IMG/VR virus record: IMGVR_UViG_3300030090_004825
Coordinates: 1-42,283 of that record
Length of the DNA stretch: 42,283 nucleotides
DNA from: a virus
Strand: one strand, 5' to 3'
Shown here: piece by piece, positions 16,631 to 27,860 of the stretch
Layout of the letters: every line of letters starts with the position of its first letter
Numbering within the stretch: the first letter of the stretch is position 1
Position numbers and translations under genes: made by a program
The notes under the pieces: model-generated
Told to the model about the DNA's origin: nothing
Seen by the model: the letters and a program-made list of their open reading frames with translations, nothing else
Databases searched by the model: none

Positions 16631-17179
16631 TTATTCATCCCAACCCGCAACCTCTGCGATCTCATCTAGATGTTCGCTAATGAAGTCACCTATCCAATTA
16701 TCTGTGCTATCACTGATATCTATCCCTTCAGAGTCAGTCTCTTCAAAATCATAGGGCTCACCATCATCGTAGTCAGATGGGCCGTAGTCATAACAAGACT
16801 CCCTTGCAAGACTCATTAAATGATCACGAACTTCGTCTTCGTTATCGCAATCAGATAGCTCATCGAGCGTAAAGGATACGGATGTGCTATAATGCTGAAC
16901 TCTGTTTATCCTTACTGTCCCATAAGTATCTTCTCTGGCATAGACATCGAAGCTAATTTTTTCATTCACATCAGGAATATTCCTTCTGATCCTTTTGAGC
17001 CTGTCCTCTTTTATATTCGCCAGAATATAATCCTCTATCAGCTTTGGTTCCTTGATCTCATCAGGGACTACCAAGTCTGTGATTCTCCTGACCGCGCCCC
17101 TTGTCATGGGATTGATCGGAGCTCTCCTAACTAGGTCTAACACCTGTCTAGGTAATATATTTTCTATTGTAGTTTTCAT
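16631..17179 (-). CDS. Hypothetical protein in the ubiquitin-like operon
   Basis: 182 aa. The N-terminal 40 residues hold the VRRAPINPMTRGAVRR module shared with the C-terminus of the protein encoded at 14407-15201. The rest is mostly acidic and ends in DNWIGDFISEHLDEIAEVAG. Its ATG overlaps the TGA of the E1 gene as ATGA, so it is translated with it. It may be an adaptor or a target of the system; no known domain was recognised. Confidence 0.7.
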   Translation of the reverse strand: MKTTIENILPRQVLDLVRRAPINPMTRGAVRRITDLVVPDEIKEPKLIEDYILANIKEDRLKRIRRNIPDVNEKISFDVYAREDTYGTVRINRVQHYSTSVSFTLDELSDCDNEDEVRDHLMSLARESCYDYGPSDYDDGEPYDFEETDSEGIDISDSTDNWIGDFISEHLDEIAEVAGWDE

Positions 17180-17880
17180 TCCTTACTTGCCTCAATTAAC
17201 ATTTTAGCTGTGAAGCTGAGCGTCTCGTACTTACTGGTTCGCTCAAGCATTAGAACCTCATCCGTTTCAAAGACATCATCTGCTCTTTCATGATGCCAGA
17301 ACAGATGGGTCATAAGAGAAGCGGCCCATTGATTAGCTAATACCAACTGGGGTGACTCCACCTGCGCATCGCCCGTACAGCCCTCTGCTACAATCGGAGA
17401 CCCTGACTTTACCGTGAGTATCTCAGGGTAATAAACGCGGGGGTCGCAAGGCGTACCTTTCCAGTAGTTGTCGTAGTAGTATGCATCAGCATCCTCGTAC
17501 CCGTTGCCACCTATGATTGACTTAGCACCTGTGTCATCACATATAGACAGAATGTCTGCCCTAGCGGGGTGATTGTCAGCGCAGCCAAAGAAGAAGTCAT
17601 CAGCACTAAACCTCTGAACATCATCCTTGGATAAGTATCGAGGCACAGCATTGATGTTTATCTCTGCATACCCGAAGTTAACTACGCACGCTTCGGCTTT
17701 GTTCAAACCCACCTGATGAGGTGAGTACAACTGTCTGTCGAGATTAGATGTCTCTATCTTATCTCCGTCCCAGATGTTTATATTATAGTCGGCCTTATCA
17801 TGTCCGACATTGAGTAGCTTAACTAAAGCAGGGGCGAGCCATGTGCCAACGCCGCCTGCACCTATTATATGTATGTTCAT
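17176..17880 (-). CDS. E1/ThiF-like adenylating enzyme
   Basis: 234 aa. The nucleotide-binding Rossmann start is I6-G-A-G-G-V-G12, then W-D38-G-D40 binding the ribose, N46-L-D-R-Q50, K61 (K-A-E-A), and C-A-D101-N-H-P-A-R106, all landmarks of the E1/MoeB/ThiF superfamily. Candidate catalytic cysteines are C144 (GTPCDPR) and C167 (EGCTGD). There is no CxxC zinc pair. The enzyme would adenylate the C-terminus of the ubiquitin-like protein and transfer it to the E2-like partner. Length and order resemble PRTRC-type ThiF. ATGA overlaps on both sides show tight coupling to the 155- and 182-aa genes. Confidence 0.88.
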   Translation of the reverse strand: MNIHIIGAGGVGTWLAPALVKLLNVGHDKADYNINIWDGDKIETSNLDRQLYSPHQVGLNKAEACVVNFGYAEININAVPRYLSKDDVQRFSADDFFFGCADNHPARADILSICDDTGAKSIIGGNGYEDADAYYYDNYWKGTPCDPRVYYPEILTVKSGSPIVAEGCTGDAQVESPQLVLANQWAASLMTHLFWHHERADDVFETDEVLMLERTSKYETLSFTAKMLIEASKE

Positions 17881-18344: not shown

Positions 18345-19114
18345 ATAGCTAAGTCCTCGATGTAAGAAGCACTGAAGTATTCCAGTATGTCAGAGAGTTG
18401 ACCCTTGGGTTCAAGTTGTTCGTTGGTGTCTGCATGAAACCTGAATAACTTTGATGACTTGTCACCAATGTCGTCAGAAAGGTCAGCGTTCCAAGGCGTG
18501 GAATAAAACAGATCAATGTTTTCGTTGACAGTATCTAACACTGTTCCCGACATTATGTATGCTTCGCCAAAGCATATCTTGCTGTCGTTGTATACATTAC
18601 CAACTGGTAGCCTGAAGTCTCCCTCAGTATCTCTAATCCTTGCATGAAGGTAACTGTTACGCACGACTGGAACTGGGTTGTCGGGCTCAGCCCTTAACTC
18701 GAACGTGATGTATACACGCAGTGCATCTTGTGGCTTCCACTTTAAGTCAAACGTAAGCGCACTTGAGTTACCTGCTGCATTGTTGAAGCTAGGATACAAC
18801 CACTTCTCGTCTCCCTCTTCAGCAACTGCATAACTTGTGTTGAAGTTTAGATACTTCAGCCGAGTTGTCACATAATACCAAGTGTATCCGTTTTGATCTG
18901 TCTTAACGGACATACTTTGCAACATGTTAGTTTCTCCGGGGCATTCAATAGATGATAGGAAAGGAATCTTGAAACTCCTTGTCGAAGCAATCTTATCAAT
19001 AGCTTTGGAGCAATCGCCCAATGGTCGCAGGCTCAGGTCAATTCCGTAAGCCCCGTCATTGGTGAACATAATAGCACCTGAATTAAGTGCTCTTTCTAGA
19101 TTGTGTACTGGCAT
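18341..19114 (-). CDS. E2-like (PRTRC-B/Prok-E2-type) protein
   Basis: 257 aa. A beta-rich core (about 75-160, YYVTTRLKYLNF, LRVYITFELRA) is followed by LPVGNVYNDSKI and C181-F-G, the P-x-x-N-V-x-x-x-x-x-I-C-x-G arrangement around the active-site Cys of prokaryotic E2-like PRTRC-B proteins. C181 would carry the activated ubiquitin-like protein as a thioester. The ending is acidic and aromatic. It is the first gene after the terminator that follows the ubiquitin-like gene and overlaps the next gene by ATGA. E2 assignment is by motif and context; structure prediction would settle it. Confidence 0.7.
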   Translation of the reverse strand: MPVHNLERALNSGAIMFTNDGAYGIDLSLRPLGDCSKAIDKIASTRSFKIPFLSSIECPGETNMLQSMSVKTDQNGYTWYYVTTRLKYLNFNTSYAVAEEGDEKWLYPSFNNAAGNSSALTFDLKWKPQDALRVYITFELRAEPDNPVPVVRNSYLHARIRDTEGDFRLPVGNVYNDSKICFGEAYIMSGTVLDTVNENIDLFYSTPWNADLSDDIGDKSSKLFRFHADTNEQLEPKGQLSDILEYFSASYIEDLAI

Positions 19115-19124
19115 AATATTTTAA

Positions 19125-19153
19125 GAAAAAACCCCCCTCGTTATGAGGGGGGT
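19125..19153 (-). terminator. Intrinsic terminator between the ubiquitin-like and E2-like genes
   Basis: ACCCCCCTC (19131-19139) and GAGGGGGGT (19145-19153) form a 9-bp perfect stem with a 5-nt loop; on the minus strand the second arm is followed by TTTTTT. It would make the small beta-grasp gene more abundant than the enzymes downstream, which suits a system that needs many copies of the modifier. Confidence 0.85.
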
Positions 19154-19178
19154 TAACTGTTCTGCTTTTTACAATCCT

Positions 19179-19631
19179 TTAGACAGCCTTGCTGTTGGCT
19201 GAGTTCTCGACGGTGATAATGTCACCATCCCGCACGGTGATGCTCATGTCCTGATCAGCACCGTTGATTGTTGCTCGCACGTTACTCCCGAACTTGAGAG
19301 CAGGGCGTGCCTCATTGAGCGCGTCCCCGATTGTCGAGCCTGCTTCTACCTCTAGGGTAGCTGTCCGTGACAAACCATAGCGGACTGTCACCGTTACCAA
19401 CTCATCGCTGGCCTTCTCCATGCACAACGGCTCCAGCTTGATAACATCACCATCGGAAACGGTGTTGCTATTCTCAAGCGCAGATGCGTTTGCAATCGCG
19501 CGGTACTGTCCGCTACCCAGCTTGAGCGCCGAGCGCACCTCGTCGATCAATTGACCGACAGTTGTACCTTCTTCTACCTCGGTGGTTACTGAGCGTACCA
19601 CCCCATACTTTACTGTTACGTTGATTAACAT
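19179..19631 (-). CDS. Tandem beta-grasp ubiquitin-like protein
   Basis: 150 aa from the ATG at 19631; the frame extends to 19667 but the domain starts at this Met. Two clearly homologous beta-grasp repeats lie at 2-68 and 78-142: VTVKYG...TEVEEGTTVGQLIDEV...SDGDVIKLEP and VTVRYG...LEVEAGSTIGDALNEA...RDGDIITVE. The G-x-T-V/I-G-D/Q and D-G-D-x-I signatures are those of ThiS/MoaD/ubiquitin-like proteins. The C-terminus is ENSANSKAV, without a Gly-Gly end, so activation would need trimming or a different chemistry. Situated before the E2-, E1- and JAB-like genes, it is the likely modifier of the system. Confidence 0.8.
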   Translation of the reverse strand: MLINVTVKYGVVRSVTTEVEEGTTVGQLIDEVRSALKLGSGQYRAIANASALENSNTVSDGDVIKLEPLCMEKASDELVTVTVRYGLSRTATLEVEAGSTIGDALNEARPALKFGSNVRATINGADQDMSITVRDGDIITVENSANSKAV

Positions 19632-22166: not shown

Positions 22167-22285
22167 AACATATCCTTTATTATATCTATGATGTCCTCGC
22201 CGCCCACATATAAGAACCATGCGAACGGCACAAAAAAGGCCGAGAAGATTAACCCCTCGGCCACGCCCCGAACTATATCTTTCAT
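22163..22285 (-). CDS. Possible 40-aa membrane protein
   Basis: 40 aa with one hydrophobic helix (GLIFSAFFVPFAWFLYVGG). It starts two bases after the previous stop and ends in an ATGA overlap, so it fits the operon perfectly. However, a terminator-like hairpin with a T tract lies inside it (22231-22262), so it would be expressed only by read-through. Low confidence. Confidence 0.35.
   Translation of the reverse strand: MKDIVRGVAEGLIFSAFFVPFAWFLYVGGEDIIDIIKDML
22231..22262 (-). terminator. Intrinsic terminator
   Basis: On the minus strand GGCCGAG and CTCGGCC form a perfect 7-bp stem with an 11-nt loop and are followed by TTTTTT. It lies just after the 22287-22577 gene, where it would separate that transcript from the genes to the left. 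Confidence 0.8.
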
Positions 22286-22579: not shown

Positions 22580-23026
22580 TTATTCTCCTATTAAATCAAC
22601 TGATTCAAGATAATCTTCAAACTCATTCTGAACAAGCTCGCTGAAACTAAGACTCCATTCTGACCTGAAAGGGTGAGACTTTCTCACAGCTTCCACACCA
22701 CACTCGTGTGCACGCATGTAAGCTTCAACGATGTCTTCAGTTTTGTGCGCTGTGTCCGCAACAGCCTTTGCGACTATATCAATACCTACGGAGTAGGTAG
22801 AAAATATCGTCTCATAATCATTGAAGGCATCAGGCTCCAACATCTCGTACACATATGCGTATCGGTAGTTGAAGTTGACCATCCAACTTCCATTGTTAGG
22901 GTACTTCTTGAAAGCCATATGACTCACAACATCCAACAATGCCAACAAAGCTTCTTTATTTAATGAAGCTACTTCCAATGCCTGCTCCTTGTTATCGGTC
23001 ACAGGACTTTCGCATTTAGCGATCAT
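22580..23026 (-). CDS. Hypothetical protein downstream of the giant RNA
   Basis: 148 aa from the ATG at 23026, preceded by AGGAG; a GTG start 18 bases upstream touches the terminator T tract and is less likely. Helical, with aromatic middle (NFNYRYAYVYEMLEPDAFND). No domain recognised. It is the first gene after the terminator ending the 23.05-24.20 kb structured region, so it has its own promoter or depends on read-through. Confidence 0.6.
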   Translation of the reverse strand: MIAKCESPVTDNKEQALEVASLNKEALLALLDVVSHMAFKKYPNNGSWMVNFNYRYAYVYEMLEPDAFNDYETIFSTYSVGIDIVAKAVADTAHKTEDIVEAYMRAHECGVEAVRKSHPFRSEWSLSFSELVQNEFEDYLESVDLIGE

Positions 23027-23044
23027 GTCTCCTGATAAGAACAC

Positions 23045-23072
23045 AAAAAAACCCCAACCTTTTTGGCTGGGG
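23045..23072 (-). terminator. Terminator ending the structured RNA
   Basis: On the minus strand CCCCAGCC (23072-23065), five A, GGTTGGGG (23059-23052) and TTTTTTT form a strong intrinsic terminator. One pair is G-U on the minus strand and an A-C mismatch on the plus strand, so it works leftward. There is no gene to its right for 1.15 kb. Confidence 0.9.
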
Positions 23073-24161
23073 TATATGTCGTGCCCTCTTGTGTGCCTAT
23101 CGGCGGTGGAGCCCTCTTGCTTTACTCAACCTAGACTATGCAGGCTTTCCTGCATTTATGGGGGAGTATCGCCCCATACTGGTTGAAACCACTAAACGAG
23201 CAGGTTCTAGCTACTCGCCGAACGGCTGTCCGTCCTCTACATGGTTCCGATAGACACAAAAGAAGACACGCCGATAACTAGGGCATCCGATAGTCTCGGA
23301 GGAGAAACCCCTAGTCACTAAAACGTGTCAATGATTCGTGATTGTTATGTCAAACTCCATCTGACCGCTCTCGCTCATGCATAGCGGATACCACAGTACG
23401 AGGACTGATCTGGTATCATATACATAGGCTTAACGGCTCAAGGTTAGTCTGCTTCATGCCCACGACGGCATGTTACGAGATACACTGTATCCCGTATCTT
23501 ATTTTGCTGAAGGTCAGATAAACTCCTTGCTTAGCAGGTAAATGCCTTGTGCTCGCTCTCATTACCATACTCGCGGCCCAAGTGTACCCTGACCCGTTCT
23601 CTAGGGTCATTGCTCAGGCGGCGGTGTCAAGTGTGGACGCTTGCATATGCCAACGCATATACAAAGATTACTAGCCTGCCAGCAACCTGATGCCGAACTA
23701 TGGGATATCGAAATATCTGGACACAATCCACCACAGACAGCCTCCAAAGGGTCACGCTACACCCACATATAATGTGGTTCACGATCGCGTTTAGAGTGCT
23801 GTCTGCATTCTAGCCTACATCAGGCCCGCCACTACTATCCCCCGCTAGATGTTGATGCGTAGCCTGTCCGAGTCTATCCGCGCCTCCCATCAAGTATCCC
23901 TTCTCTAAGCCTAACTGGACGCAACAAGCATGGCTTGCTGCCCACCTGAATCCACAGGATGCTACTGTCATAGCTCATTACGGCACTTGCGTATGTTTCA
24001 GCCCTCGTAAACGAGAACCCCAGATCGGAACATAGATATCTACATACCATCAAAGATAACGCGAAGACCAACTGAGTGATCCATTTTACTGGATGTTGTC
24101 ACCCCTCAGTTGTGTTCGACTCTGCTACTGTCTCTGTCTAGCAGGTTAACAGTCTATTGAC

Positions 24162-24194
24162 TGTCATTAGCATTGGATACCAACACTAATGACA
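24162..24194. promoter_or_regulatory. Operator-like dyad at the likely RNA promoter
   Basis: TGTCATTAG (24162-24170) and CTAATGACA (24186-24194) form a perfect 9-bp dyad with a 15-bp spacer. On the minus strand TTGTCA (24195-24190, one base off the -35 consensus) lies 17 bp from TGCTAA, a weak -10. The dyad may be an operator over the promoter of the structured RNA, or the first hairpin of that RNA. It shares the TGTCAT half-site with the dyad at 24486-24530. Confidence 0.45.
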
Positions 24195-24200
24195 ACCAAT

Positions 24201-24231
24201 AAAAAGTGAGCAGGGAATGAACCCTGCCCAC
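24201..24231 (-). terminator. Terminator after the 79-aa gene
   Basis: On the minus strand GTGGGCAGGG and CCCTGCTCAC form a 10-bp stem with one G-U pair and a 6-nt loop, followed by TTTTT. It ends the 24237-24476 transcript and isolates the structured RNA to its left. Confidence 0.85.
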
Positions 24232-24236
24232 TCATG

Positions 24237-24476
24237 TCACTTGCTACGCATATATCGCGCAGCCTGCTTGGCAGCTTTGTAGTGATTGCCAAGCTCGGTA
24301 CAACTACGCCAGCCATTGGGTAACTGTCGCTGCTGATCATAAAGATCACCAACGTATACAGCTACACGTTGCGCTTCATGTCGTGTCGTACCATCGGTGA
24401 CTGTCATGTGACCTGTCACCTTGCCCTGTCGCTTTGCTTTGCGACTGGCACGTTGTTTTGCGTATTTCTTTCGCAT
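24237..24476 (-). CDS. Basic protein with its own operator and terminator
   Basis: 79 aa, very basic at the start (MRKKYAKQRASRKAKRQGK), followed by VTVTDGTTRHEAQRVAVYVG-like strand and a C-terminal helical part. No family recognised. It is a single-gene transcript: an operator-like dyad lies just upstream (24486-24547) and an intrinsic terminator just downstream (24201-24231). It adjoins the giant RNA, so a role as its protein partner or as a regulator is worth testing. Confidence 0.65.
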   Translation of the reverse strand: MRKKYAKQRASRKAKRQGKVTGHMTVTDGTTRHEAQRVAVYVGDLYDQQRQLPNGWRSCTELGNHYKAAKQAARYMRSK

Positions 24477-24485
24477 AACTTAAAT

Positions 24486-24547
24486 GTCATCGCATCTGTC
24501 CGAACTGTCGGAACTGTCAGATGCAATGACGTTTAAATTATTTAAAC
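24486..24547. promoter_or_regulatory. Two dyads upstream of the 79-aa gene
   Basis: GTCATCGCATCTG (24486-24498) and CAGATGCAATGAC (24518-24530) form a 13-bp dyad with one mismatch. Between them lie the direct repeat GAACTGTC x2 and a TCCGA/TCGGA stem. Immediately right, GTTTAAATTATTTAAAC (24531-24547) is a perfect 7-bp dyad. This is a typical multi-site operator and promoter region in the 24477-24577 gap. The TGTCAT/ATGACA half-sites recur at 24162-24194. Confidence 0.6.
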
Positions 24548-24577
24548 ACAAAAAAAATATGCAATCGCATCAGGGCA

Positions 24578-24606
24578 CAAAAAAACCCCCCGCTTTCGCG
24601 GGGGGT
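24578..24606 (-). terminator. Terminator after the Lys-rich gene
   Basis: ACCCCCCGC / GCGGGGGGT form a perfect 9-bp stem with a 4-nt loop, followed on the minus strand by TTTTTTT. It ends the transcript of 24612-25187. Confidence 0.9.
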
Positions 24607-24611
24607 AATGA

Positions 24612-25187
24612 TCAGAGAACGTATTTTTCCGCTCCGACTGTTTTTGTGTTCAATCTGTGGAATAAATCCTCGGATTTGAACCCTGTTTTCTTTGTGACTA
24701 CCTTTTGTGTGAAGGCAATCCCATCGGGCGAATCCACGTTGCCGTTGAATCCAAGCGTTAACTCTTGGCTGAGTTGCCCGCTTTCAACGTCATTCTGCTG
24801 GCGCTGGATTACTTCAACGGTTAATTCCGCTCTGTATTTCCGCAGGTCTTTTACAAGCGCGGTTGCGTCATTGGTTGATTGCTCTTTGGTTAATTCATCA
24901 ACCTTGCATTCCAAATGCCATGCCATGAACGGGCGGCGCGTGGTTGCGTCTACCGCTCCCGCTTTAGTGGGCGGGATTGCTTTAAACAGACGCATTCCCT
25001 TTGGATCGCTTTGCAACCTAGCATTCACTTGGGCGATTTCGGCGCGGCGTTTAGGGGTTAACCCTTTTGCCTTGCGCTTGGTCGCTTTCCGCTTGGCCTT
25101 TGGCTTGGTTGCCTTTGGCGTTGGCTTGGTTGCGTTGCGAGTAGTGCGGCCTTTGGTTGTGCCGCTCTTTTGCGTTTTAGTTTGCAT
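24612..25187 (-). CDS. Histone-H1-like Lys/Ala-rich protein
   Basis: 191 aa from the ATG at 25187; a longer frame to 25274 is open. Residues 1-45 are a Lys/Thr/Ala/Pro-rich tail with KPTPKATKPKAKRKATKRKA, like histone H1 or HU-tail proteins, followed by a compact mixed domain (about 50-190) with no recognised motif. A strand-overlapping plus frame is a shadow. The gene is followed by a terminator and preceded by a long leader, so it is a separate unit. DNA- or RNA-binding or compaction is likely from charge. Codons are more GC-rich than in the neighbours, which may point to a different origin. Confidence 0.65.
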   Translation of the reverse strand: MQTKTQKSGTTKGRTTRNATKPTPKATKPKAKRKATKRKAKGLTPKRRAEIAQVNARLQSDPKGMRLFKAIPPTKAGAVDATTRRPFMAWHLECKVDELTKEQSTNDATALVKDLRKYRAELTVEVIQRQQNDVESGQLSQELTLGFNGNVDSPDGIAFTQKVVTKKTGFKSEDLFHRLNTKTVGAEKYVL

Positions 25188-25472
25188 GATGTTTTTTGTA
25201 TCGGGGGAGAGAATGCCTTTGCCCATACGATGGGGGGCCGTTCCTTCCCTCACAAGTGAAACTCTCCCCCTCAACTACCTGTCATTTTCCTACTGTATGA
25301 AAACAGCATTCCTTTGTTTATGATGGGGGAGTGTAGCGCGAGAAGAAGGGGGGTGGGAGCGGGGGCATACCCCATGTGTGTATATGTATATGTATATGCC
25401 CTTGCGCGACTCTAAGCCATTTTCTAGAAACAACTTTTCGCGTATAAACCTATACTGTAGGCTGTCTGGGCT
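25188..25472. other. Gene-free stretch with repeats and a long dyad
   Basis: No credible gene. GGGGGAGAG (25203-25211) and CTCTCCCCC (25262-25270) form a perfect 9-bp dyad about 50 bp apart, and GGGGGAG recurs near 25326, so the leader of the Lys-rich gene may fold. TATATG is repeated in tandem at about 25379-25398. The right part is AT-rich and leads to a small rightward frame. A promoter for the Lys-rich gene probably lies here; I could not choose one. Confidence 0.5.
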
Positions 25473-25598: not shown

Positions 25599-26031
25599 CG
25601 TCTTTGAAGCCTTTATTCTCTAAAAGTCCCCATGCGCCTAGATAGATTCCCCATTTTGCATCATCTATGTTGTTTGTGTTGACTGATATGGTCTTCATTC
25701 CGTAGATGGCATCGTAGGGAATGATAAGAAACTCCCTTGTAGGTATCCCGACGAAGATATAAACGTCTATATCGCATCGGTCATGGATAGTTTTTTTAGA
25801 GTGGCCTCCCCTGATAGTCCACTTGTAGGCCTTTTCGTTGCCTGAAGGGTGGTTAAATTTGGTGGCAGACTTGATTTGCACCTTATGAATGAATCTGCCT
25901 TTAGTTATTATTCTATCGTAGGGAGCGTAGTCCCCTTCTGGGGTGGAGACATACCAGTCACGTTTAATTAATTCAGCAGTGACAATGCATTCAGCGGCTG
26001 TTCCTAGCTGCTTGTTATGGTGTGTTCCCAT
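25591..26031 (-). CDS. PD-(D/E)XK nuclease/Holliday-junction-resolvase-like protein
   Basis: 146 aa. G10-T-A-A-E14 helix, Y38-D39-R, then V51-Q52-I-K54-S-A (Q-x-K in place of E/D-x-K), a common variant layout of small PD-(D/E)XK proteins such as archaeal-type Hjc and DUF4365-like enzymes. It lies directly after dnaB with a 17-bp overlap and is likely to act on replication or recombination intermediates. The Q substitution is a caution: it may bind rather than cut. Confidence 0.7.
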   Translation of the reverse strand: MGTHHNKQLGTAAECIVTAELIKRDWYVSTPEGDYAPYDRIITKGRFIHKVQIKSATKFNHPSGNEKAYKWTIRGGHSKKTIHDRCDIDVYIFVGIPTREFLIIPYDAIYGMKTISVNTNNIDDAKWGIYLGAWGLLENKGFKDVI

Positions 26032-27382
26032 AGCTGTCTACGGGAATGTCTACTATGGGTGAAGCGTCTCGCATCTTGGTGTACTTTGGGACGAACTCAA
26101 TATTGATTTCACCCACTGGGCCATTCCTCTGTTTGGCAACTATGAGGGACAAGGGGTATGGTTTTCCATCAGACATGTCAACGTCATTATCCCTATGGAG
26201 CATAACTACTACGTCTGCATCTTGTTCTATTGCTCCTGAGTCTCTGAGGTCTGTTAGGCGGGGTTTACGTTCGTTTATGGTTCCAGCGCGGGAGAGTTGA
26301 GATAAGCAGACTACGGGTACGTTCAAGTCCTTTGCTAGGGCTTTTAGTTGTGATGACCAGTATCCTACTTCTAGGGCTCTTGTTTCAAATTTCTTGGAGG
26401 ATGATATTATCTGGAGGTAGTCGATTACGATTAGGTCTATGCCTACGTCACGTTTAAGTCTTTTAGATTTGGATTTAATATTATGGATGGTGCAGGTTCC
26501 GCTATCGTCTACGAAGATTGGGCGTTTACCGATGAGGTCAATGCCAGCCTGAATCTTCTTCATATCATTTTGGGACAGGTCTCCTTTGAGAGCGTCACGG
26601 TAGTCGAGGTTCATCTCGGAGCAGATGGATCGCATTTGGAGTTGAGCGGCTGTCATCTCTAGGGAGAAGAACAGGACGTTATGACCACGGGCTGCTGCTG
26701 CATCGGAGATGCAGAGACCGAGTGAAGTTTTACCTACGCTTGGCCTAGCGGCGATGATATTTAGCTCACCCTTGTTGAGTCCTGAGATCATCTGATCGAG
26801 GTTGTAAAGGCCAGTAGTGATGCCCTTGATACCTCCCTTACGATTGAAGCAATCAGTGAAGAACTCCACGGTATCCTGCCTAATGTCCTTATAAGCCCTT
26901 ACAGACGTTTCTGAGTCCCTTACCTTGCACAGACCCTCGGCTCTTTCAAAAAGCTCTTCTAGCACCCCTGTGGGCTCAGCACTGGGGTCTTGTGCTATCC
27001 TTGATGATACCTCATCGCATAGCATCTTGGTTTCCCGCTTCATTTTTGTCTCTTGCAGGATTTCCAGATAGTACGACCAGTTGAGCGGGGAGGGTGTGAT
27101 GTTCTCGCATTCATCCACGAACTGGATGTTCTGGTGGATATTATTTTCGATGAACTTGCGATTGATGGTGACTTTATCTATCAGCCGATCTTTGTCGTAT
27201 AGGTCAAGGATCACCAGCATGTGATTCTTGCAGATCGGATCGGTGAATAGATTGAGCGGCCTATCTTCCCTAGCAAGCAGCTTGTCTAAGATTTGGGGGT
27301 CTAGAAGAATACAACCGATCAGTCCTCGCTCTGCTGTGTAATCTTCAAGGTGGTCTAGCTTTTTATTATTTAACCTCTGCAT
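26015..27382 (-). CDS. dnaB: DnaB-like replicative helicase
   Basis: 455 aa, normal for DnaB. The N-terminal domain (about 10-125) is followed by the RecA-like core: Walker A A212-R-P-S-V-G-K-T219, S240-L-E-M, Walker B L-I-V-I-D-Y (317-322), then S361-Q-L-S-R and D381-S-G-A-I-E-Q-D-A-D. It unwinds dsDNA 5' to 3' at the phage fork. It follows the initiator gene and the AT-rich tract of the putative origin. A separate helicase loader was not found in the window, so the initiator or a host loader must deliver it. No DNA polymerase or primase gene is present here. Confidence 0.93.
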   Translation of the reverse strand: MQRLNNKKLDHLEDYTAERGLIGCILLDPQILDKLLAREDRPLNLFTDPICKNHMLVILDLYDKDRLIDKVTINRKFIENNIHQNIQFVDECENITPSPLNWSYYLEILQETKMKRETKMLCDEVSSRIAQDPSAEPTGVLEELFERAEGLCKVRDSETSVRAYKDIRQDTVEFFTDCFNRKGGIKGITTGLYNLDQMISGLNKGELNIIAARPSVGKTSLGLCISDAAAARGHNVLFFSLEMTAAQLQMRSICSEMNLDYRDALKGDLSQNDMKKIQAGIDLIGKRPIFVDDSGTCTIHNIKSKSKRLKRDVGIDLIVIDYLQIISSSKKFETRALEVGYWSSQLKALAKDLNVPVVCLSQLSRAGTINERKPRLTDLRDSGAIEQDADVVVMLHRDNDVDMSDGKPYPLSLIVAKQRNGPVGEINIEFVPKYTKMRDASPIVDIPVDSYGNTP

Positions 27383-27458: not shown

Positions 27459-27860
27459 TTAGGAGAATTTGGCCGCAGTTGCGCCCATTCCGCCGATAAA
27501 AATGTCCTGAACTGGGTCTTTTGACTCAACAGTTGGGTTTATTGACTCAACACTTGAGTCATCTGACTCAGTAACTGAGTCTTTAGACTCAACTTGAATT
27601 GGGTCATTTGACTCATCTATTGCGTCAATTGACTCAGTTGTGTCAAGTCCTGAGTAGGTGGCGACCTTGGAGCGGTTGTTGGTCTTGATGACTAGCTGTT
27701 TGGATATCAGCGAGGGCAATCTTTTACTAATTGCTTTGCGAGTCATACCTGTTCTGTAGGACAATCTATTTATAGACATGTCATCTTCACATAACAGGGC
27801 GGCGTATATGCGAAAGCTCAGTGGGTCGAGCTTCGTTCGGTTGAGTTGATCTACTGTCAT
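27459..27860 (-). CDS. Winged-helix replication initiator, lambda O-like
   Basis: 133 aa. A winged-helix DNA-binding domain (about 11-70) has S29-I-N-R-L-S-Y-R-T-G-M-T-R-K-A-I-S-K-R-L as its HTH. Residues 72-117 are seven-residue repeats built on (V/T)ES(K/D/I)D(S/P), encoded by the 21-bp iterons. The ending is QDIFIGGMGATAAKFS. Like lambda O, the gene carries the origin to which its own product probably binds, and dnaB follows. The upstream leader has a terminator-like stem immediately before the ATG at 27860, suggesting controlled expression. Initiator function is inferred from the domain, the iterons and the neighbours. Confidence 0.75.
   Translation of the reverse strand: MTVDQLNRTKLDPLSFRIYAALLCEDDMSINRLSYRTGMTRKAISKRLPSLISKQLVIKTNNRSKVATYSGLDTTESIDAIDESNDPIQVESKDSVTESDDSSVESINPTVESKDPVQDIFIGGMGATAAKFS
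27504..27651. repeat. Six tandem iterons of about 21 bp (candidate replication origin)
   Basis: GACTCA begins at 27523, 27544, 27565, 27586, 27610 and 27631 (spacings 21, 21, 21, 24, 21), with the inverted TGAGTC at 27555 and 27576 completing palindromes of the form GACTCAA-N-TTGAGTC. A further half-unit lies at about 27504-27522. All sit inside the initiator gene, and the AT-rich tract follows. A 21-bp period equals two helical turns and seven codons, so DNA and protein repeats are the same. Confidence 0.8.

Follow-up and report, generated by a model that had tools for sequence, protein, structure and literature searches.

To our knowledge, few structured RNAs of very large size have been described from bacteria and their phages. 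GOLLD assembles into a closed 14-mer cage and ROOL into an octameric one, and we know of no function for either cage. tRNA genes are frequently, though not obligatorily, found near or in GOLLD. OLE is a bacterial RNA that works with membrane proteins such as OapA, and HEARO (omega-RNA) is about 340 nt long and lies beside an HNH/IsrB gene. GOLLD is encoded by phages and prophages, is at least 0.8 kb long, and has many stems, a variable linker in its interior, and stronger conservation in its 3′ part than in its 5′ part; both GOLLD and ROOL build cages from RNA only, and OLE dimerises (PMC12286853).

The locus described here occupies the minus strand at positions 23045–24201 of a 42,283-base virus record (IMGVR_UViG_3300030090_004825), which was analysed over its whole length and is called the window below. 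The record carries genes for TerL, DnaB, integrase, SSB and recombination proteins, and the phage is of marine type. On balance we favor the reading that this stretch encodes a large (~1.0–1.1 kb), multi-domain, non-coding RNA that is transcribed leftward and belongs to a family outside Rfam, most likely a trans-acting structural RNA and possibly an oligomeric one. The stretch meets the criterion for the general kind, large ornate phage ncRNAs, in being long, non-coding and rich in covarying helices. A previous sequence-only reading had called it gene-free, and we found no ORF longer than 65 aa inside it. In L008, a related contig with 90% identity, a 4-nt indel breaks the 65-aa ORF itself (23874–24071, minus strand); no ORF is conserved, and no protein-coding homologue of 23045–24201 was found.

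Scans with the Rfam models for GOLLD, ROOL, HEARO and OLE, which the same reading had suggested, matched none of these families. Using Rfam 15 at gathering as well as permissive thresholds, the window and the related contigs L009, L013 and L016 gave only sub-threshold chance matches to unrelated families; there was no cmscan match to the OLE model and no Rfam match to HEARO. The GOLLD model (RF02032) had 0 matches at E ≤ 10 in the window, L008, L009, L013, L015 and L016. Across six records, the ROOL model (RF03087) found nothing at E ≤ 10 (the positive-control genomes were also without a match), and it had no match in cmscan of the window, L009, L013 and L016. A literature search, with incomplete coverage, found no description of such a family.

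The likenesses to known systems are nevertheless considerable. As in GOLLD, we see a large phage RNA with many stems, a more conserved 3′ part and a variable internal insert, but this RNA is longer, has no model match and no nearby tRNA, and is bounded by long helices and terminators at both ends. ROOL is likewise a large ornate phage RNA, and its variable linker can be compared to the variable insert here; however, it is only ~0.66 kb long in contrast to ~1.1 kb, and here there is neither a model match nor a tRNA island. Membership in GOLLD or ROOL was rejected in the absence of model matches. A highly diverged member of either family that escapes the Rfam models would fit the similar size class, the phage location, the greater conservation of the 3′ part and an insert resembling the linker described in PMC12286853, but we consider it very unlikely given the lack of matches to GOLLD (E ≤ 10, six records), to ROOL (with unmatched control genomes) and in the permissive cmscan, and given that no tRNA genes were found in the window. 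OLE shares only the character of a large ornate RNA, and differs in being bacterial and in the missing Rfam match. HEARO (omega-RNA) is similar as a structured RNA linked to mobile elements, but no HNH/IsrB gene adjoins the stretch, and the adjoining proteins (22580–23044 and 24237–24476) match no Pfam family. Group I and group II introns are also large structured phage RNAs, some of them without proteins of their own; this identity was rejected, as there is no Rfam match, no interrupted gene, and the flanking ORFs are intact in the window, L009, L013 and L016 (three gene contexts). The RNA may resemble the known ornate RNA families in mechanism, but it does not belong to any of them.

Searches with TerL and DnaB yielded ~20 related viral contigs, most of which are too short to reach the RNA region. 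L008 is a partial homologue whose contig ends inside the region, with the first 340 nt matched at 90%. L009 contains a diverged full-length homologue at ~18,490–19,585; a single-sequence nhmmer profile of the window RNA matched it at 19,013–19,503 (E 2e-9) and, more weakly, at either end. L013, L015 and L016 have a 0.7–1.0 kb non-coding stretch at the same locus after DnaB, from which the RNA is separated by a small conserved gene, one more gene and a terminator; these three RNAs can be aligned with one another, and the RNA loci of L013 and L016 fold with z of −5.6 and −8.6, respectively. Position is thus conserved, with the order DnaB, 146–159-aa gene, further gene(s), terminator and RNA retained in four lineages. 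The gene that follows the RNA is a 154-aa gene in the window, a 64-aa gene in L009 and the MGRRRDHK gene in L013/L016. That the RNA is retained in three lineages with different genes behind it favors action in trans over action in cis.

The evidence base comprises no more than about five distinct sequences, including a partial one, in two sequence-diverged types, which are linked by position, size and the 3′ helix and not by similarity along their full length. Common to the window type and L013/L015/L016 is a 3′ helix, GUGUCyUyUUUUGUGUCUA ... UAGryACAcAArAGGgACAC, and the profile of this helix links the types at 12 bits, compared to none in 900 shuffled sequences. Beyond the 3′ helix and the motif UAGUAGUGG, sequence similarity between the window and L013 types could not be demonstrated; judged from position and the 3′ helix, shared descent is likely, but not proven. 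Exact-motif scans of viral contigs returned known relatives and chance matches only. Among the candidates rejected, the motif match in L026 is a terminator, and L113–L115, L117 and L119 lack similarity to the RNA. Nothing was found in prokaryote genomes picked by TerL, and a pattern search for the 3′ helix in prokaryote genomes gave seven matches, about the chance number, none of them similar by nhmmer. A DnaB profile reached only remote helicases. The central-domain covariance model (CM) finds L009, which was part of its training set, and turned up nothing convincing among the remote loci to which it was applied. The 50,697 phage records contained no match to the RNAs, to TerL or to the 627-aa virion-region protein; the phage group carrying the RNA is absent from the phage records searched.

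Covarying helices in relatives, another check proposed in advance, were found. We ran RNAalifold on alignments made from sequence only, with column shuffles as the null. For the L013/L015/L016 trio, 42–47 pairs are changed on both sides, in contrast to 19.6 ± 3.6 in shuffles, with an energy z of about −14; coding controls from the same contigs (DnaB, TerL and upstream segments) gave z of 0 to −2.8. The central domain, compared between the window and L009, has eight pairs compensated on both sides vs. 2.6 ± 1.5 in shuffles (z −7.6), and pair statistics are weaker for the nested domain at 23265–23329 (z −3.0). No kissing loops with covariation were found; complementary unpaired 5-mers number 8 vs. 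2.2 ± 2.2 in shuffles, with a compensated pair in only one. A decayed protein gene or chance structure can be dismissed almost entirely: the fold energy, only moderately better than in other segments of this phage, would allow it, but covariation far exceeds that of the coding controls and the fold is kept across relatives of ~65% identity. We rejected it as already contradicted by the covariation.

Fold energy itself is less informative. At 23040–24039 the fold energy is −382 kcal/mol (z −5.3) for the minus strand and −304 kcal/mol (z −2.3) for the plus strand, while 900-nt segments elsewhere in the genome have a mean z of about −2.5 (sd 2.4), some reaching −6 to −10. In 150-nt windows the mean z is −1.8 within the stretch vs. 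−1.0 outside, and local scans at this size do not single out the RNA region. With an average z of about −2.5 in this phage's coding segments, fold energy alone is weak evidence, and the case for a structured RNA depends on covariation in relatives, not on energy. Two other parts of the window also fold strongly. The lowest z among the 900-nt segments sampled (−10.6) belongs to the minus strand at 24301–25200, which covers a Lys/Thr-rich 220-aa gene and a palindrome, and on either strand no local hairpin in the window is stronger than the one formed by internal repeats in the ORF at 27459–27860 (z −9.2 and −6.8).

The minus strand had been assigned from the sequence alone, and that assignment is correct: the minus strand folds better, and the G-U evidence, seen as an asymmetry of one-sided changes, fixes the strand. 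On the opposite strand of the L013/L015/L016 trio, covariation falls to z −9.5 from about −14, and one-sided (G-U type) changes number 7 compared to 42 on the forward strand, a drop that would be expected if only the RNA strand can use G-U pairs. This also bears on the possibility that the locus works at the DNA level, for instance as a replication origin or an array of protein-binding sites beside the DnaB gene, in which the hairpins would matter as DNA. The DnaB helicase gene (26015–27382) is indeed near, and the 5′ palindrome scores the same on both strands; however, one strand is strongly favored by both of these measures (z −14 vs. −9.5; one-sided changes 42 vs. 7), no iterated direct repeats were found, and we give this explanation little credence.

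The RNA begins near 24201 and runs leftward, its 3′ end being at a terminator. All elements are given on the minus strand, 5′ to 3′. In a long 5′ hairpin of ~20 bp (24156–24200), both partners have changed in 4 of the 20 pairs among the window, L008 and L009; the z of this hairpin, −11.3, does not differ between the strands, which would also permit it to function as DNA. A second hairpin of the 5′ domain (24069–24112) shows a compensatory change from C-G to U-A in the alignment with L008. The single-stranded motif UAGUAGUGG (23829–23837) also occurs in L013, L015 and L016, and its GUAGUGG in L009. The central domain (23733–23806), which covaries between the window and L009, is built on the stem GCAGACAGC/GCUGUCUGU with an asymmetric internal loop, GUGAA/GUGUAGC, that we infer to be loop-E-like, and contains the conserved motif GUGAACCA-N-UGGGUGUAGC (23756–23782). 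A motif GUGAACCAC..GUGGGUGUAGC was also seen in contig L116 (1410–1437), within a possible intron with a NUMOD4/HNH-like ORF; either a 3D motif that recurs or mere coincidence could account for this.

Several hairpins separate the central domain from the nested helix domain, located exactly where it had been predicted (23265–23329), whose loop segment UCUCCU-hairpin-GAUGCCCU is kept in L009 while stem pairs are changed. A 3′ helix of 21 bp follows, with its 5′ arm GUGUCUUCUUUUGUGUCUAUC (23249–23269) present in L009, L013, L015 and L016, its 3′ arm GAUAGGCACACAAGAGGGCACGAC at 23078–23101, and between them a variable insert domain (23102–23248) of 147 nt in the window, 4 nt in L009, ~15 in L016 and ~165 in L013. 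Bases 23265–23269 belong both to the last arm of the nested helix and, as its first five bases, to the first arm of the 3′ helix; complete formation of both at once is therefore impossible. The terminator comes next.

Leftward terminators had been proposed at both ends, and a scan of a 4-kb region (12 sites found vs. 3.3 expected) recovered both as intrinsic-terminator-like sites on the minus strand, one (24233–24204) ending the upstream leftward gene (24237–24476) and the other (23073–23051) closing the RNA, with an equivalent hairpin in L009 at 19535–19565. Support for the proposal that the RNA forms a transcription unit of its own is only partial: two terminators bound it, but no sigma-70-like promoter was recognised on the minus strand near 24100–24260, and the downstream start codon is too near the terminator for one. 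The leftward gene that follows (22580–23044) more likely starts at ATG 23026, which has a good Shine-Dalgarno sequence, than at 23044. Two minus-strand terminators (23051–23073 and 22238–22262) end only ~20 nt ahead of start codons (23026 and 22220), which leaves a promoter no space; this phage probably uses read-through or antitermination.

This close spacing is what keeps alive the idea that the RNA acts in cis on the next gene, as a leader of unusual length or a processive antiterminator, in which the nested stem and the 3′ helix would be mutually exclusive. The Shine-Dalgarno sequence and ATG at 23026 lie ~20 nt beyond the terminator, with similar spacing in L009 and L013/L016; the nested stem and 3′ helix do overlap, at the five bases given above; and in L013/L016 a stem ahead of the 3′ helix is followed by U7, which is terminator-like. 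We nonetheless think a leader unlikely, though it cannot be set aside: the downstream gene is not the same among the three lineages, a 1-kb fold far exceeds known leaders in size, and the terminator at 22238–22262 is equally close to ATG 22220 without such an RNA.

Other features of the surrounding genome were noted. An inverted repeat at 24475–24541 (24-nt arms, 19-nt loop) overlaps the start region of the gene at 24237–24476 and lies directly after a terminator, resembling the 5′ hairpin of the RNA in placement. Contigs L006 and L007 are 95–96% identical to the window over the DnaB region and diverge abruptly at ~25,280–25,345; judging from these sequences, the region left of ~25,280 appears to be variable. 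A ThiF/E1-like phage protein (Pfam PF00899, E 6e-17) is encoded at 17176–17880.

In the reading that we prefer, selection maintains the fold of the RNA, with paired substitutions preserving helices in relatives while length and sequence drift and one insert grows or shrinks. The RNA would be made between the two terminators, possibly trimmed at the long 5′ and 3′ helices, and would most likely act in trans as a free, scaffold-like structural RNA. By analogy to GOLLD and ROOL it may form homo-oligomers via loop and A-minor contacts; a scaffold or oligomer role is suggested because those two families are the best examples of large, covarying, fully non-coding RNAs of phages in which an insert varies. 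The lack of an ORF, the terminators, the conserved position, the covariation and the strand are established; that the RNA accumulates as a discrete molecule, acts in trans and oligomerises is inferred, without expression data. A bolder version, which we hold only tentatively and regard as doubtful, adds a third lineage to the two cage-forming ones: an unrelated phage RNA that would assemble into an oligomer or cage made of RNA only, with the insert at 23102–23248 as cargo or an interior segment.

The evidence supports a family of large, ornate RNAs in phages that is new and has no Rfam match. Its strongly supported helices are a starting point for probing, and a new family that is unrelated to those already known, and longer, could be used to test independently whether large phage RNAs in general form cages or multimers.
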